Positions 39,377 through 46,892 of a stretch of DNA of 64,000 nt are shown in pieces. The stretch is taken from assembly GCA_001442925.1 (NCBI GenBank), contig LDXX01000001.1, forward strand, positions 62,001 through 126,000. The letters run 5' to 3'. Position 1 is the stretch's first letter, and every line of letters begins with the position of its first letter. The notes below the pieces were generated by a model. That model did not search any database. It had not been told where the DNA came from and saw only the letters and a program-made list of their open reading frames with translations. The position numbers and the translations under genes are program-made. This DNA is from Candidatus Kryptonium thompsonii (GTDB lineage Bacteria; Bacteroidota; Ignavibacteria; Kryptoniales; Kryptoniaceae).

Positions 39377-40690
39377 TCACTTGGTTTTTGTTCTAGCAAT
39401 TTGATTTAATTTCAAGTTGTTTTTATATGCAAAAGATATAAGCCTTCCTATGCTTTCTGATGTTTTCACAGCAAGTGGGAAAGAGTAAAGAACAAATTTT
39501 AAATCTTCGCTTACGCTTGCGTTTCTGCCAACCGCAACTAGATTTTTAATTCTTGTTAAAAAAGATGAAAAAGGCACACGGATTATTAAATTGTCAAATT
39601 TTTTATCTGGAGCGAGAACACAAGGAAACAAACTCTCAGCGATCACAGATATTTTAAGCACCGCGATCTCATCGTCAAAGCTTTTATTGTTGAAAACATC
39701 TTCAGAAGTTAATGTATACATTCCGTTAATTCTGCAACTCTCCGTAAAATAAATTTGTGCTGGGAACATTGAAATATTAGCCTTCTCAAAAGGTTTAAAT
39801 TGCCTCAAATACTCAAGGAAAGAATGAACTTTTAATTGCAATCTCTCCTCCATCATGCTAATTAAAACAAGGTCATCGGGGATGAATTCATTGTCAGAAT
39901 TATCAGATAAGCCAAACACAATACAATGATTTTTTATGGGCAACTCATAAATTGCAACTTTCATACCGTCTTTTTCAACAATGTACGCATGGTATGTGAA
40001 ATTTTCTATCTTGACAGTTTCACAGACAATTCTATCATCATCTTTGCTGAAATCACAGCCACATATGACAAAATTATATCTCGCAAAAGATTTAACTTTT
40101 CTCGTCAAATTTTCATCTATAGATTTGAAAACAGCACAATTTCCAGTTGCATCGACAAAATATTTCCCCTTTACTTCGATCAATCCCTCCTTCCCAAGCA
40201 CTAAAATTGATGATACTGTGTCCCCCATCAACTTTGCTCTTACAAATGTAGCATGAAAAAGCAAATCGATCTTGAAATCAAGAAGAAGTTCAAGCATCGT
40301 GTTTTTAAACATTTCCAAATCGAATGGAATTACCCCACCCGATATTTTCAACGGGTCAGGATAGATAAATTGGGGTACTGCTTTATTTTTTAAGAGATAT
40401 CTTATCAGTGTTGAAAAAATCGGATATTTAATTGTTTCAGTTCCTTCCTCAGTAAACAATTCATCGAAGTTTCTTTGAAAATTAAACACTCTTAAAGGAT
40501 AGGCAAACGCAGTTGAGATAAGGCCACCGGGAAATCCATACTTTTCCACTAAAAAGGTCTTTAAACCATTGCTTGCACATGTTAACGCTGTCGTAACTCC
40601 ACTCAAACCACCACCAACCACGACAACATCCGCCTCAACAGTTTTAACTTTTTTGGGTATTTTTAAAATTACCTTTCTTTGCTCTTTCAT
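39377..40690 (-). CDS. FAD-dependent oxidoreductase, diverged PF12831-like paralogue
   Basis: A 437-residue flavoprotein with DVVVVGGGLSGVTTAL for FAD binding, EKYGFPGG, FVDATGN, FTESCRINGMYTLTSEDV and LVAVGRNAS. These follow the same order as in the oxidoreductase at 37327-38685. However the C-terminal hallmark (the TGEAAGVVA helix) is replaced by SFPLAVKTSESIGRLI, and the RETRR motif reads ESCRI. It is therefore a distant paralogue with altered active-site residues. The gene ends 4 bp before the nanE ATG. Confidence 0.85.
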   Translation of the reverse strand: MKEQRKVILKIPKKVKTVEADVVVVGGGLSGVTTALTCASNGLKTFLVEKYGFPGGLISTAFAYPLRVFNFQRNFDELFTEEGTETIKYPIFSTLIRYLLKNKAVPQFIYPDPLKISGGVIPFDLEMFKNTMLELLLDFKIDLLFHATFVRAKLMGDTVSSILVLGKEGLIEVKGKYFVDATGNCAVFKSIDENLTRKVKSFARYNFVICGCDFSKDDDRIVCETVKIENFTYHAYIVEKDGMKVAIYELPIKNHCIVFGLSDNSDNEFIPDDLVLISMMEERLQLKVHSFLEYLRQFKPFEKANISMFPAQIYFTESCRINGMYTLTSEDVFNNKSFDDEIAVLKISVIAESLFPCVLAPDKKFDNLIIRVPFSSFLTRIKNLVAVGRNASVSEDLKFVLYSFPLAVKTSESIGRLISFAYKNNLKLNQIARTKTK

Positions 40691-40758
40691 TATTTTGTCA
40701 ATTTTTAATGTTACCTATTTTCCACATTAAGAAGCTCAAACTGCATCTTTAAAAATGA

Positions 40759-41490
40759 CTATTTGAAGAAAATTTTAAACAAAATCATCAACAAAATTCC
40801 AAAGATAATAAATATCATCTTTTCAATGTTGTTCTTAAGCGACACTTTTTTGTGCAACTCTGGAACTAAATCAGTTAACGAAAGATAAAGAAAATTTCCC
40901 GCAGTTAAACCAAGGATATAAGGGATAAAGAATTTAAATTTTTCAAGGAAAAAGAACCCCAAAATTCCGCCTAAAATAGATGTTAAAGAAACGATGAAAT
41001 TTAGATTGAGCGCTTTTTTAGGAGAAAGTCCAGCATAAATTAAAACCCCGTAATCTCCAAGCTCTTGGGGAACCTCATGAAATATAACCCCAAGGGTTGT
41101 AATTACGCCAAGGTTAAAATCAACAAGATAAGATGATGCTATAAAAACTCCATCGATGAAATTATGAAAGAAGTCACCAAGAAGATTTACTGGGACAAAT
41201 GTATGTTGTTCACATTCCAGCTCATGGCAATGTCTCCATTTCAAAAATGTTTCAAGGATAAAAAAGAAAAAGATTCCGAAAATAATGGAATAAATTGCGG
41301 TAAATTTTTTCTCCAATGCCTCTGGTATAAGATGAAGAAAACTACCTGTTATCAAAGCACCTGCAGAAAAACTTACAAGGTAAAAACTTACCTTTTGAAG
41401 TTCTTCCAACTTTTTGTTTATAAATACTATCCCTATTAGGGAAACTAAAGATACAATTATTGTTGAAAAAACAATATATAACAGAATCAT
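40759..41490 (-). CDS. ZIP family metal transporter
   Basis: A 243-residue inner-membrane protein with eight hydrophobic segments. The metal-binding motifs of ZIP proteins are clear: DFFHNFIDGVFIASS in helix 4 and VIFHEVPQELGDYGVLI in helix 5. It probably imports zinc or iron. The cytoplasmic loop between helices 3 and 4 holds a His/Cys-containing stretch (RHCHELECEQH) that could bind metal. Its ATG overlaps the stop of a 48-codon gene by 4 bp (ATGA). Confidence 0.93.
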   Translation of the reverse strand: MILLYIVFSTIIVSLVSLIGIVFINKKLEELQKVSFYLVSFSAGALITGSFLHLIPEALEKKFTAIYSIIFGIFFFFILETFLKWRHCHELECEQHTFVPVNLLGDFFHNFIDGVFIASSYLVDFNLGVITTLGVIFHEVPQELGDYGVLIYAGLSPKKALNLNFIVSLTSILGGILGFFFLEKFKFFIPYILGLTAGNFLYLSLTDLVPELHKKVSLKNNIEKMIFIIFGILLMILFKIFFK

Positions 41491-41633
41491 AAACCAACAC
41501 CAATTTCTTGATTTACTTTTTCAAAATGTTTGCCCGCTTTTAAATTTAATATCTCAATGATGATGACTAAGGCTCTTTTTACTTGTCTGTTGTTCTCAAT
41601 GGAAACTTGAGCCATCTTAGTTTTTCCTATCAT
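41487..41633 (-). CDS. 48-residue small protein between the esterase and ZIP genes, unknown
   Basis: This frame fills the 139-bp interval between two annotated genes. It starts at ATG 41633, overlapping the esterase stop as ATGA, and ends at TGA overlapping the ZIP start as ATGA. The product is basic, with a helix-prone core (VKRALVIIIEILNLKAGKHF) and no signal peptide. I recognise no family. Coupling at both ends and the lack of any terminator or promoter in the interval argue that it is a real gene; the absence of a known homologue by eye argues for caution. Confidence 0.55.
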   Translation of the reverse strand: MIGKTKMAQVSIENNRQVKRALVIIIEILNLKAGKHFEKVNQEIGVGL

Positions 41634-42487
41634 TTTTTGGTAAGTAGTTTTTTGAGAAAATTATTTATTCCAACATCCCATAGAAGCCAATCATGTCCAC
41701 CAGGCAATTCATGATACTCGTAAAGAATTCCTTTACGACGTAATTTTTCAACAAACTCTCTGTTAGATTCAAGAAGTCCTTCAATAGTGTCATCTTTACC
41801 GCACAAGATGTAAAAGTATGGTAAATTAAAAGTTTCTATCTTTTCAACGATAACAAATATATCATTTTTATCCCAATGTTCACTTTCACTCTCGCCAAAA
41901 AACTCTTTTAAACTTTGACTTATTTGACTTTTGTCCATTTTGATCAAATCTTTCCAATTAAAAGCCCCGCTAAAGGAACCAACATAGTAGAATAAATTCG
42001 GATACTTCAGCGCGAGTTTAACAGCACCATAGCCTCCCATTGAAAGACCTGCTATCGCTCTTCCATGCTTTGCCGAAAGCACACGATACTTTCTTTCAAC
42101 ATAAGGAATTAATTCGGTGATTATGTAATCTTCATAATTTTTGTTTTTAAAAGTTGGCGAGTTTGTATACCAACTGTTGTCCGCTTCGGGTGTTATAACA
42201 AGAAGTGGATAGTTACTAACATATTTAATTAAAGATGTCTTATTTAGCCAATCGGTATGATTTCCAGAGTAGCCATGAAGCAAATACAGGACTCGATATC
42301 GTTCTTCAGTCTCATTGTAATTTCTCGGTAGAATAACATAAAATTTTCTATAGCCATCGGTAGCTTTTGAGTAAATACTGTCAAGGATAACATGAACTTT
42401 CCCCTGGGTTAAAAGCGTTCCCCCAAATAGAAGAATTAAAAGTGGAACAAGTTGAGCGCGCTTTATGATTTTTGAAAACAACAGCAT
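41630..42487 (-). CDS. secreted alpha/beta-hydrolase esterase (esterase D/feruloyl esterase-like)
   Basis: A 285-residue protein with an N-terminal signal peptide (LVPLLILLFGGTLLTQG). The nucleophile is Ser149 in GLSMGGYG, the oxyanion segment is LLHGYSGNHTDW, and a GKDD aspartate and GGHDW histidine complete the triad. The family includes carbohydrate esterases and S-formylglutathione hydrolase relatives. Signal peptide and context suggest periplasmic action on esterified polysaccharide or peptide-like material; substrate unproved. Confidence 0.88.
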   Translation of the reverse strand: MLLFSKIIKRAQLVPLLILLFGGTLLTQGKVHVILDSIYSKATDGYRKFYVILPRNYNETEERYRVLYLLHGYSGNHTDWLNKTSLIKYVSNYPLLVITPEADNSWYTNSPTFKNKNYEDYIITELIPYVERKYRVLSAKHGRAIAGLSMGGYGAVKLALKYPNLFYYVGSFSGAFNWKDLIKMDKSQISQSLKEFFGESESEHWDKNDIFVIVEKIETFNLPYFYILCGKDDTIEGLLESNREFVEKLRRKGILYEYHELPGGHDWLLWDVGINNFLKKLLTKK

Positions 42488-42499
42488 TTCAATGATCCT

Positions 42500-44704
42500 T
42501 TATGTTCGTTCTTCAGCAATAATTATAATTTTTTCGTCAAGCAAGCTTGAACTTTTCAGCTCAGCTCTTGCTACCGAAAGCATCTGTTCTTTGAACATCA
42601 CCCCAGTTAAATCAATTATCTTTGGCCCATAAATCAAAAATACATCTGGGGCAATAGCCCCAGCATCACCGTAAATGGTAAAGTTATCAATTACATGTGA
42701 AAGAACTTTTTCAAATCCATTTGGATTTGTTTCAACCACATTCGCATTTAAAAACTGAAGTTTTAGATTTCCTTCGGTATCAAATACCTTCACAGGTTTT
42801 AACTTATCCCTTAAAAAGAGAAATTTTTTTCGCTCAAGCTCCATGCCAAAAATCTTATAGAAGTTATTCTCTGCGATAACTTTAAGATATCCTCCATTAC
42901 TGTATGTGTATCTCTTTAGTAAACTTTTGAACGACTTTTCAGCTATTTTATAAAGCTCGTCATCGCTCAAGGATTTCTTCACAATATCACCCGCCTTAAA
43001 ATCGGGCGTTCCAGTGGCGATAGCTGTAATTCTTTTCGTTTGTCTGTCAATTTCAATAGCAACTTGAATTGTCTCAGGCTTTGAACCCATGCGAATAGCT
43101 GATGCGACAGCATCGTTTCTTATTTTAAGAATATCTTCCTCAGTTGGATTTGGAACAACCCTTTCTATACTCTCCCTTATCATTCCAAGAGCTGCTCCGA
43201 TTGCAGATATAACTTCGGAATTTTCCGCGATTTTATATTCAAGACCTAATTTATTTGCAAGATACGGAACTATAACCTCCGCACCACCACCCCCACCAAC
43301 AAGAGTGACAAGCTCCGTGTCAAGTTTATACTCTTTTATTAAATCTAAAATGACACCTTTTATCTTATTAACAGCAATGTCAAGTATATCCCTCGCTATC
43401 AAATCAGCAGGTTTTCCCATAAGCTGGGAAAGTTTCACGAAAATTTTCCCAACCGATTCAAAATTTCCTCTGCTATAACCATTTGGACTTATCAAGTTCA
43501 AAAAGTTAGCCGCATCAGTTGTTGTGATAGCAAATTCTGGTTTATCCGAACCTTTTCTTCTTATGGCTACATAATCTGACGGATCACCTTGCTTAGGTTG
43601 AATTAATACAAATTCAATATCATCAAAGTTTTCAGGCTCTGAAAATGAGACATACTTTAATCCAGCGATATGTGCACTTCTTGGACCAACATCAATTACA
43701 CTTTTAAAATTATCCGACATTCGTACCATTGAACCACCCGCAATTCCAAGCGTTCTAACATCAAGAGTTTTAAGATATAGCCTATTCCCTCCAACTTCAG
43801 CGCTTCGGATCATCGGTTTTCCATTTTTTATCACAGAAATATCTGTACTTGTTCCACCGACTTCAATAAAAATTCCATCGGTTATTTTAACATACATAAG
43901 CGCTGAAGCAACGCCAGCAGCTGGTCCCGATAATATCGTCATTATGGGTCTTCTTTTCATTTCTTCAGCCGTCATAATCCCACCATCGCTTCTCATTATC
44001 ATCAGCGGCGCTTTTATTCCAGCATTTTTAACAGCGTAAGATGTTATTTCAGCTGTTTCAATCATCTTCGGAAGCATACATGCGTTCACAACTGCAGTCC
44101 TTGTTCTAACCCGAAGCCCATAAAGTTTGGAAATCATGGATGCAGGGGTTGCCACTTTGCCCATGTCTTTTATAATTTCAACCACTCTTTCTTCCCTCGA
44201 TGGATCATCCACCCCAAATGCCTCACTTACAACAAAAACCTCAGCACCATTGGAAATCAGTTGTTTTACCGCTCTATTTACTTCCTCTTCTAATTTTTCG
44301 GTTCCAAAAATTTTCGAGTCAATAAAAGTGTGAAATGTCTCTATGAATTTCCCATTGCCGAGTGGAATCTTTCCAACATTCGTTTCACCTTTCGCCCTTA
44401 TCATATCTATTCCCGTTCCCATCCCAATTATCCCAACCTTGGCAACATCACCTTCGAGAAGTGCGTTCGTCGCTTGCGTTGTGCTATGCGCAATTAAAAT
44501 AACATCATCTGGATCTATTGGATCTATGTTTCCATCGCTTAAAATTTTATTCATCGCTTGAATAACCCCAAGTGCAACCCCTTCCTTTGCAGAATGAGTG
44601 GTAGGGACACAACTCTTCGCAACTATCTCAAGTGAATCTACATCAATTGCAACAGCATGGGTAAATGTCCCACCAACATCGATTCCTATCTTTATTCTTC
44701 GCAT
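42500..44704 (-). CDS. hydantoinase/oxoprolinase family protein, HyuA-type subunit
   Basis: A 734-residue ATP-dependent amidohydrolase-like protein. The N-terminal actin-like domain begins KIGIDVGGTFTHAVAID and the second contains EVGGTSTDISVIKNG and LVGGGGGAEVIVPYLA. This is the HyuA side of 5-oxoprolinase, N-methylhydantoinase and acetophenone carboxylase systems. These normally pair HyuA with HyuB; no HyuB gene is seen next to it, although it could be encoded elsewhere. An esterase follows and a frameshifted membrane gene and a permease precede it. Confidence 0.88.
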   Translation of the reverse strand: MRRIKIGIDVGGTFTHAVAIDVDSLEIVAKSCVPTTHSAKEGVALGVIQAMNKILSDGNIDPIDPDDVILIAHSTTQATNALLEGDVAKVGIIGMGTGIDMIRAKGETNVGKIPLGNGKFIETFHTFIDSKIFGTEKLEEEVNRAVKQLISNGAEVFVVSEAFGVDDPSREERVVEIIKDMGKVATPASMISKLYGLRVRTRTAVVNACMLPKMIETAEITSYAVKNAGIKAPLMIMRSDGGIMTAEEMKRRPIMTILSGPAAGVASALMYVKITDGIFIEVGGTSTDISVIKNGKPMIRSAEVGGNRLYLKTLDVRTLGIAGGSMVRMSDNFKSVIDVGPRSAHIAGLKYVSFSEPENFDDIEFVLIQPKQGDPSDYVAIRRKGSDKPEFAITTTDAANFLNLISPNGYSRGNFESVGKIFVKLSQLMGKPADLIARDILDIAVNKIKGVILDLIKEYKLDTELVTLVGGGGGAEVIVPYLANKLGLEYKIAENSEVISAIGAALGMIRESIERVVPNPTEEDILKIRNDAVASAIRMGSKPETIQVAIEIDRQTKRITAIATGTPDFKAGDIVKKSLSDDELYKIAEKSFKSLLKRYTYSNGGYLKVIAENNFYKIFGMELERKKFLFLRDKLKPVKVFDTEGNLKLQFLNANVVETNPNGFEKVLSHVIDNFTIYGDAGAIAPDVFLIYGPKIIDLTGVMFKEQMLSVARAELKSSSLLDEKIIIIAEERT

Positions 44705-45428: not shown

Positions 45429-46892
45429 TTATAAAAACATCATCGCCGAAATTATTAACCCAACTGTTGCAAGGCTCCACATGTATGGGAATGTTTTTCT
45501 TAAAATTTGGTTCACATCGATTTTTAACTCATTCGCTATCCAAACATTATGTGTATTAGTGGGGTCGCAAACACCTTGGATCTGCCCGACGGAAAGCAAC
45601 AATCCCATAACTGAAGCTGGTGGAAGTGTTCCCACAGGCGATGAAATAAGCGTTGCGATTCCATAGCCCAATCCCCAAACATTTAAAGGTCCACGATAAA
45701 GTGCCAATGGGCTTAACAATGAAAAAACCGCTACGTATAAGACAGGTGAACTTGGAACTATCGCCTTAAATAAAGGTTTCAGTTGCGCATACACCTTCCA
45801 CTCTCCATGTCCCCAACCAGACGGACCTAAAATTGCGTTAAGGAGCATGCCAATCCCAATCATTAGCGCAACTGCAGGAATTACGCTACTTCCACCTTCT
45901 ATAATTGATTGCATAAGCAAATTTAAACTGCCCTTTCTAAATGTCGTGATAAAACCGTAAAATAAACCAGCAACAAAGGCAAAAATGAAATATTTGCTTC
46001 CAAGCGCAAAAACTATAACCAGCGGCACAATCGGCGTTAACAAAGCATACCATCTTAACTGTCCCAAATGTGAAGGAGATATTGCATTAAAGATAAACTT
46101 GATAAAAAGATAACTTAGAAAAAGGATTAATAAAATTTCCCCGATCAACTTAAAGATATTCTTTAAGTTATCTGGAAATAACCTTTCAACCTTACCCAAT
46201 GTTAAAAAAATAAGAAAAAATGCTATAAGCAGAGCAAGGGTTAAGAGAAATTTAAAGTTTAAGATAAACTTAAAACTTTTAATTATCCTGTCCCTTTTCA
46301 ATTCAACAATGATAAAAGCGATGGCAACCGCCAAAGACACAAAGAAAAGATAAAGTGCAAAAGTTCGAACCGTTTCAAACTGGACATTTAAAATGTTGAT
46401 ATACAATGCCCAGTTTTGCGCATTTAAAATTCCACCTATACTTAACCCAATTAAAAAGACCCCAGCGATTATTCCAGGGCTTATTCCAACGGAGCTCATA
46501 ATAGGGAGCACGATTGTTCCAACCATAACTATTGCCCCAAGTCCTCCAAGGGTTGTGAATAAAATTGAAGTCAAAATTAAGATAATTAAACTCACATAAA
46601 AAGGGTTATCACCCGCAAGTTCCGCCCCCTTTCTTATAAAGCTTTCAGCAATTCCAGATTTCTGCATGAAAATACTTAGCATGCCACCGAAAATCGTAAT
46701 CGTATATGCTTGATGTAATCTGAAAGCGCCTTCTCCAATCACATAAACAAGTATATCATCTAACGGGATGCCACCGATCAAGGCTATAAAAAACGCCATT
46801 AGTGGGAGAGCAATAAGCGCAGGGATAACACGCAAGAACATAAGCAAAGCCATTACAATGAAAACTATTACTATCCCAGCAATTGTTAACAT
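45429..46892 (-). CDS. ion-transporter-superfamily permease (citrate/gluconate-type), substrate unknown
   Basis: A 487-residue inner-membrane protein with twelve or more hydrophobic segments, including VMVGTIVLPIMSSVGISPG and the Gly/Asn-rich ASVMGLLLSVGQIQGVCDPT, as in CitMHS/gluconate-type secondary carriers. An organic acid substrate is likely. It comes just before the frameshifted gene and HyuA, so it could import the HyuA substrate (for example a cyclic amide or its product). That link is inference from gene order. Confidence 0.75.
   Translation of the reverse strand: MLTIAGIVIVFIVMALLMFLRVIPALIALPLMAFFIALIGGIPLDDILVYVIGEGAFRLHQAYTITIFGGMLSIFMQKSGIAESFIRKGAELAGDNPFYVSLIILILTSILFTTLGGLGAIVMVGTIVLPIMSSVGISPGIIAGVFLIGLSIGGILNAQNWALYINILNVQFETVRTFALYLFFVSLAVAIAFIIVELKRDRIIKSFKFILNFKFLLTLALLIAFFLIFLTLGKVERLFPDNLKNIFKLIGEILLILFLSYLFIKFIFNAISPSHLGQLRWYALLTPIVPLVIVFALGSKYFIFAFVAGLFYGFITTFRKGSLNLLMQSIIEGGSSVIPAVALMIGIGMLLNAILGPSGWGHGEWKVYAQLKPLFKAIVPSSPVLYVAVFSLLSPLALYRGPLNVWGLGYGIATLISSPVGTLPPASVMGLLLSVGQIQGVCDPTNTHNVWIANELKIDVNQILRKTFPYMWSLATVGLIISAMMFL

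Follow-up and report, generated by a model that had tools for sequence, protein, structure and literature searches.

Organization of the locus

The DNA analysed here (64 kb, referred to below as the window) carries a 48-codon reading frame which fills the whole interval between a putative esterase gene and a gene encoding a ZIP metal transporter (Table 1). Upstream of this small frame lie the esterase gene and a hydantoinase/oxoprolinase-like gene, while the ZIP gene located downstream is followed by a gene for a FAD-dependent oxidoreductase, a NanE-like gene and a second FAD-dependent oxidoreductase gene. A membrane-protein-like gene of the same region (45429-46892, minus strand, 487 aa) has counterparts of 77-87% identity in three relatives; its product had no Pfam match at E ≤ 1 and a marginal match to a GntP-type NCBIfam model (E 0.8).

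Table 1. Features of the esterase-ZIP region, in window coordinates.
Feature	Position	Strand	Remarks
Hydantoinase/oxoprolinase-like gene	42500..44704	(-)	Hydant_A_N + Hydantoinase_A
Proposed parent segment, hydantoinase-like codons 539-577	42974..43090	(-)	
Putative esterase	41630..42487	(-)	PF00756
48-codon reading frame, ATGA overlap at each end	41487..41633	(-)	
First 39 codons of the 48-codon frame, putative diverged in-frame hydantoinase-like copy	41517..41633	(-)	67/117 nt, 15/39 aa, ungapped
ZIP metal transporter gene	40759..41490	(-)	PF02535; not found at the corresponding place in relatives
Approximate insert (939 nt), esterase stop to FAD-oxidoreductase start	40691..41629	(-)	Absent from G002, G003 and G004
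FAD-dependent oxidoreductase	39377..40690	(-)	Start overlaps the esterase end in G002, G003 and G004

The ATG of the small frame (at 41633) shares an ATGA with the TGA of the esterase gene, and its own TGA shares another ATGA with the ATG of the ZIP gene. The first-pass annotation of this DNA had reported such an exact fit, with ATGA at both ends, without giving a strand; our analysis confirmed it and assigned it to the minus strand. Read on the plus strand, the same interval contains stops. Only frame 0 is open over all 48 codons, and each of the five alternative frames of these 147 nt has 2 to 7 stops and a negative codon score.

The frequency of this arrangement was examined in a 464-kb sample of the same genome (the window plus 400 kb). 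A filler frame with ATGA overlaps at both ends was found in 1 of 341 co-directional adjacent gene pairs, this single case being the esterase-ZIP frame itself, which had been pre-selected by the earlier annotation. When the 62 gaps measuring 60-300 nt were simulated with a Markov model (an ATGA stop is present on the upstream side of 7 of them), 0.068 such fillers were expected. The earlier view that double coupling is unlikely to arise by chance thus held up, in that the double overlap is real and uncommon. The probability that 48 codons stay open, given both ATGA ends in phase, was 0.045 under the Markov model (range 0.045-0.048). This figure may be too low, since 22 of 95 ATGA sites in real intergenic DNA (both strands, with unannotated small genes kept in the count) open a frame of at least 48 codons.

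Coding character of the small frame

The frame is gene-like in its codon score (9.1), which equals or exceeds that of 40.4% of 5980 real 47-codon segments and is reached by 1.1% of 2267 open wrong-frame segments. Its per-codon score is reached by 5.3% of 113 intergenic ORFs. Half of the score (4.6 of 9.1) is supplied by codons 40-48. Because the double ATGA is rare and the codon score is gene-like, the frame is probably more than a chance opening.

The predicted product is basic (6 K and 2 R vs 4 E) and has a hydrophobic core (ALVIIIEIL), in agreement with its original description. A single-sequence AlphaFold2 model consists of one helix (residues 2-44; mean pLDDT 90.3, pTM 0.55). A lone, confidently predicted helix of this kind neither shows nor excludes a function, and we regard it as weak evidence of one.

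Distribution of the insert and of the ZIP gene within the genus

The genus is represented in our collection by seven species, i.e. the genome under study (G000) and six others (G001 to G006). Three of the latter (G002, G003 and G004) keep the order hydantoinase-like gene, esterase gene, FAD-oxidoreductase gene, and in these genomes the last two genes overlap by approximately 22, 7 and 7 nt, respectively (longest frames taken). Since the FAD-oxidoreductase gene overlaps the esterase gene directly in these relatives, the small frame and the ZIP gene together constitute an insert of about 0.94 kb, which was seen only in this genome when compared with the three of six other species that keep the gene order. 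The esterase-ZIP junction itself was found in none of the six.

Orthologues of the esterase occur in five of the six other genomes (58-79% identity). In G001 the hydantoinase-like gene is directly followed by the FAD-oxidoreductase gene, and the esterase (58%) is encoded on another contig. The esterase gene of G006 has no FAD-oxidoreductase gene beside it in the 12 kb read, and the esterase matches in G005 are weak (33% and 41% over parts of the protein). The hydantoinase-FAD junction (39377-44704) is modular: it has no esterase gene in G001, contains the esterase gene in G002-G004, and contains the esterase gene, the small frame and the ZIP gene in this genome.

The ZIP proteins encoded by G001 and G003 are about 51% identical to the one described here and their genes lie in a different neighbourhood; for G002, G004, G005 and G006 even the top-scoring match is remote (24-27% identity, rising to 35% over a short segment). 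Homologues in the genome_contigs collection are 36-50% identical, and many of them come from archaea, Omnitrophota and Patescibacteria. Horizontal gain of the ZIP gene is suggested by this distribution, because, of the species compared, this one alone has a ZIP gene at this place, and the homologues are at most about 50% identical in archaea, Omnitrophota and others and 51% identical in the two congeners, where they lie elsewhere. A separate observation concerns the end of a G001 contig (C13; L038, 9855-10000), which repeats a 5' piece of the ZIP gene beside the end of a GroES-like gene and is probably an assembly artefact.

We also considered a small partner travelling with this ZIP subfamily. 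The regions upstream of the ZIP genes of G001, G003 and 32 of the 33 ZIP loci from genome_contigs (L078, which carries a partial ZIP gene, was omitted) were scanned for frames that are 25 aa or longer and terminate near the ZIP start, from 80 nt ahead of it to about 20 nt past it. None of the 22 frames obtained was a clear relative of the 48-codon frame. The best alignment was with a 62-aa frame from L070; its score of 38 was reached by 11 of 3000 shuffles, and it covers a 22-residue stretch in a different position; as the best among 22 frames it is unremarkable, and it was not taken as homology.

Searches for a related small protein

The 48-residue product had no Pfam match at E ≤ 1, and PHROGs, NCBIfam and PDB sequences likewise yielded no family, just as none had been recognised at first sight. 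No confident homologue was found in 60 relatives (weak matches only, best E 0.068), and a sample of 391 genomes of the class gave, besides the genome's own frame, two weak matches (E 0.031 and 0.068). The genome_contigs, viral_contigs and plasmids collections also contained no confident homologue. With all of these searches negative or weak, a conserved family of small proteins was set aside, and matches in G024, G038, G361 and other genomes (E 0.03 to 2) were put down to chance. The weak matches in G004, G001 and G002 (E 0.07, 0.15 and 0.48, respectively) shared a single location, an identical set of codons in the hydantoinase-like gene. The first-pass annotation had proposed that the frame might encode an undescribed partner of the transporter or the esterase. 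We could not uphold this proposal, given that no confident homologue was found, that the junction occurs in none of the six other species, and that the frame aligns with the hydantoinase-like gene.

Similarity to the hydantoinase-like gene

The first 39 codons of the frame align without gaps with codons 539-577 of the hydantoinase-like gene, at 67 of 117 nt and 15 of 39 aa. This putative parent segment lies 1.3 kb away, two genes upstream on the same strand, and the two are in frame with each other, Met on Met. Among 927,304 ungapped 117-nt placements in the 464-kb sample (self aside), 67 was the best count and 58 the next. None of 150 codon shuffles reached 67 (mean of the maxima 57.5, highest 62), and of 300 real coding segments compared with the rest of the sample one reached at least 67. 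That single control had hit a true paralogue, encoded by an adjacent pair of genes in L092 (G000:C6, 25625-27028 and 27396-28670, plus strand; 30% identity over 429 aa, E 2e-62). The orthologous site was also the top placement in the loci of G002, G003, G004 and G001 (69, 63, 64 and 61 of 117, respectively; next best 52-54).

The protein comparisons point in the same direction with varying force. The scores of alignments to the orthologues of G000, G002, G003, G004 and G001 were reached by 3, 0, 2, 0 and 1 of 3000 shuffles, respectively, and a protein HMM built from the five orthologues ranked the frame above all of 2000 shuffles (E 0.002 within this set). The parent ranked first among 393 sampled genes (score 52 vs 44 for the next), and its score was reached by 18 of 200 shuffles when all 393 genes were searched and by 5 of 300 when the long ORFs of the window were. 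Local DNA alignment gave scores that none of 1000 codon shuffles reached for G000 or G002; for G003, G004 and G001 the numbers were 49, 2 and 8 of 1000, the G003 value being unremarkable. An nhmmer DNA profile found the putative copy with a borderline E value of 0.059, followed by an unrelated match at 0.11, and in the class search a match elsewhere (E 0.031) slightly outscored the site in the G004 hydantoinase-like gene (0.068). The 117-nt length was picked post hoc, with the alignment already seen, and over 144 nt the margin narrows to 74 vs 71.

Codons 40-48 have no match to the parent. Since these parentless codons give half of the coding score, descent from the hydantoinase-like gene does not account for all of it. 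Taken together, the comparisons lead us to regard homology between the frame and the hydantoinase-like gene as quite likely, a grade that reflects our judgement and not a computed figure.

No second copy of the hydantoinase-like gene was detected in the genome at E ≤ 0.001. A less diverged or intermediate copy of the fragment was likewise absent from the six other species of the genus, in which matches at E ≤ 10 occurred only in the hydantoinase-like gene itself (G001, G002 and G004). A remnant of the 5' end of the FAD-oxidoreductase gene was considered by eye as another source of the frame and rejected, as at most a few bases match after the ATG, too few to be assessed. In the gap between the ZIP and FAD-oxidoreductase genes, the best candidate for a second fragment matched 42 of 68 nt at C4:127635 (next 38).

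Divergence of the putative copy

Compared with the parent segment by the NG86 method, the 39 codons of the putative copy have a dN of 0.55 and a dS of 1.09 (dN/dS approximately 0.5), while the parent gene compared between G000 and G002 gives a dN of 0.08 and a dS of 1.15 (dN/dS 0.07). The former ratio is rough, the parent being the only possible partner for comparison, and with 39 codons a value near 0.5 is no proof of neutrality. Identity is spread evenly over the three codon positions (22, 24 and 21 of 39). On these rough estimates, strong purifying selection acting on the copy would be hard to accommodate.

With respect to age, the copy is nearly equidistant from the segments of G000 (67) and G002 (69) and further from those of G004, G003 and G001 (64, 63 and 61). 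At the 17 sites that differ between G000 and G002, it has the base of G000 in 7 cases, that of G002 in 9 and a different one in the remaining case. This points to an origin near the split of G000 and G002. An early event on the G000 branch is the simplest reading, because G002 keeps the plain junction.

In simulations of neutral decay starting from the parent segment, the frame of the 117 nt survived in 11.5-23.5% of runs, according to the model used, and 24-40% of the surviving frames equalled or exceeded the codon score of these 39 codons. If the segment does descend from coding DNA, its open frame and gene-like codons can be accounted for without selection. The last nine codons and the exact ATGA fit to the ZIP gene are less well explained by descent, and the double ATGA is rarer than plain decay would suggest.

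Translation of the frame and of the ZIP gene

No SD-like 4-mer precedes either the small frame or the ZIP gene. Huber et al. (2023, PMC10666635) found termination-reinitiation to be nearly lost at gaps of about 20 nt in the H. volcanii and E. coli gene pairs tested; judged by those pairs, an untranslated gap of 139 nt should uncouple the ZIP gene from the esterase gene. On the other hand, the ZIP gene may initiate alone, since an SD-like motif is present in only 76 of 306 genes here. Translation of the small frame by coupling to the esterase gene, with ribosomes then passed on to the ZIP gene, seems to us the likeliest course.

Origin of the frame

We consider it probable that the 48-codon frame is the decayed relic of a partial duplication of the hydantoinase-like gene, situated in a lineage-specific operon insert. 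According to this explanation, approximately 117 nt (codons 539-577) would have been duplicated to the 3' end of the esterase gene with frame and strand preserved, on the lineage of this species or close to it, and the same or a related event would have placed the ZIP gene between the esterase and FAD-oxidoreductase genes. The start codon of the frame might be an ancestral start near the esterase stop, given that the final esterase codons of G002, G003 and G004 contain the start of the FAD-oxidoreductase gene; alternatively, it might descend from the parental Met codon with which it aligns. Thereafter the copy may have drifted fast, perhaps near the neutral rate, until its resemblance to a working part of the parent was lost. 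Ribosomes that finish the esterase would probably start anew at the ATGA, synthesize the peptide of 48 residues and then restart on the ZIP gene. At most, the frame might be a bridge that keeps the ZIP gene translationally coupled across the 139-nt gap.

Such bridging could also be the reason for the existence of the frame: the peptide would be immaterial, and selection would maintain an open frame ending on the start of the SD-less ZIP gene, which reinitiation needs. The excess of double ATGA over its expectation, the missing SD-like motifs and the reported sensitivity of reinitiation to short gaps agree with this; however, the ZIP gene may initiate on its own, neutral decay alone keeps 39 codons open in 12-24% of runs, and the gap is kept in none of the relatives compared, so that we find a selected bridge somewhat unlikely. 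A combination of the two ideas, in which a piece copied from the neighbouring enzyme gene was turned into an independent bridge cistron and selected solely for remaining open between the esterase stop and the ZIP start, restoring coupling for the newly inserted transporter gene, appears rather unlikely. It is quite improbable that the frame opened by chance in filler DNA which arrived with the ZIP gene, and that its match to the hydantoinase-like gene is coincidental. Long open frames are indeed more common in real intergenic DNA than under the Markov model, and the profile statistics of the match are borderline, but a coincidence would have to produce the best of all placements by a wide margin, a count unequalled by codon shuffles and by any coding control except the one with a true paralogue, and it would have to do so in the same operon, strand and frame. 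Most doubtful of all is a lineage-specific small protein (a predicted single basic helix), possibly born from the hydantoinase fragment and acting with the ZIP transporter or the esterase. The gene-like codon score, half of it from nine parentless codons, and the confidently modelled helix would fit such a protein, whereas the fast change of its amino acids, the searches without a confident homologue and the lack of a clear relative among the 22 frames near the other ZIP starts speak against it. There is little positive evidence for a selected microprotein, and none of the results favours a conserved new protein.

If the frame is indeed a decayed relic, the locus illustrates how the look of an overlooked gene (an open frame with gene-like codons and double overlaps) can be explained by a decayed coding fragment beside a lineage-specific insertion. 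Should the bridging role be true, gene debris would be keeping a newly gained operon gene translationally coupled. We do not imply that such cases are new to the literature.

Comparison with known systems

The arrangement resembles the overlapping termination-reinitiation pairs described by Huber et al. (2019, PMC6728339; 2023, PMC10666635) in its 4-nt ATGA overlaps, present here at both junctions of co-directional genes. It differs from the pairs presented there in that the middle cistron has no detectable conserved product and in that coupling is predicted from sequence. With the hydantoinase/oxoprolinase A family (PF05378/PF01968) the frame shares the match of its codons 1-39 to codons 539-577 of the neighbouring member; in contrast to members of this family, it has only 48 residues and matches no Pfam-defined domain. 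Fragments of partial gene duplications and degenerate gene relics are of a general kind in bacterial operons. The 48-codon frame is like them in being a short, apparently in-frame piece of a neighbouring gene that has diverged fast and has no conserved family of its own, but it differs from them in that ATGA overlaps fit both of its ends to the flanking genes.
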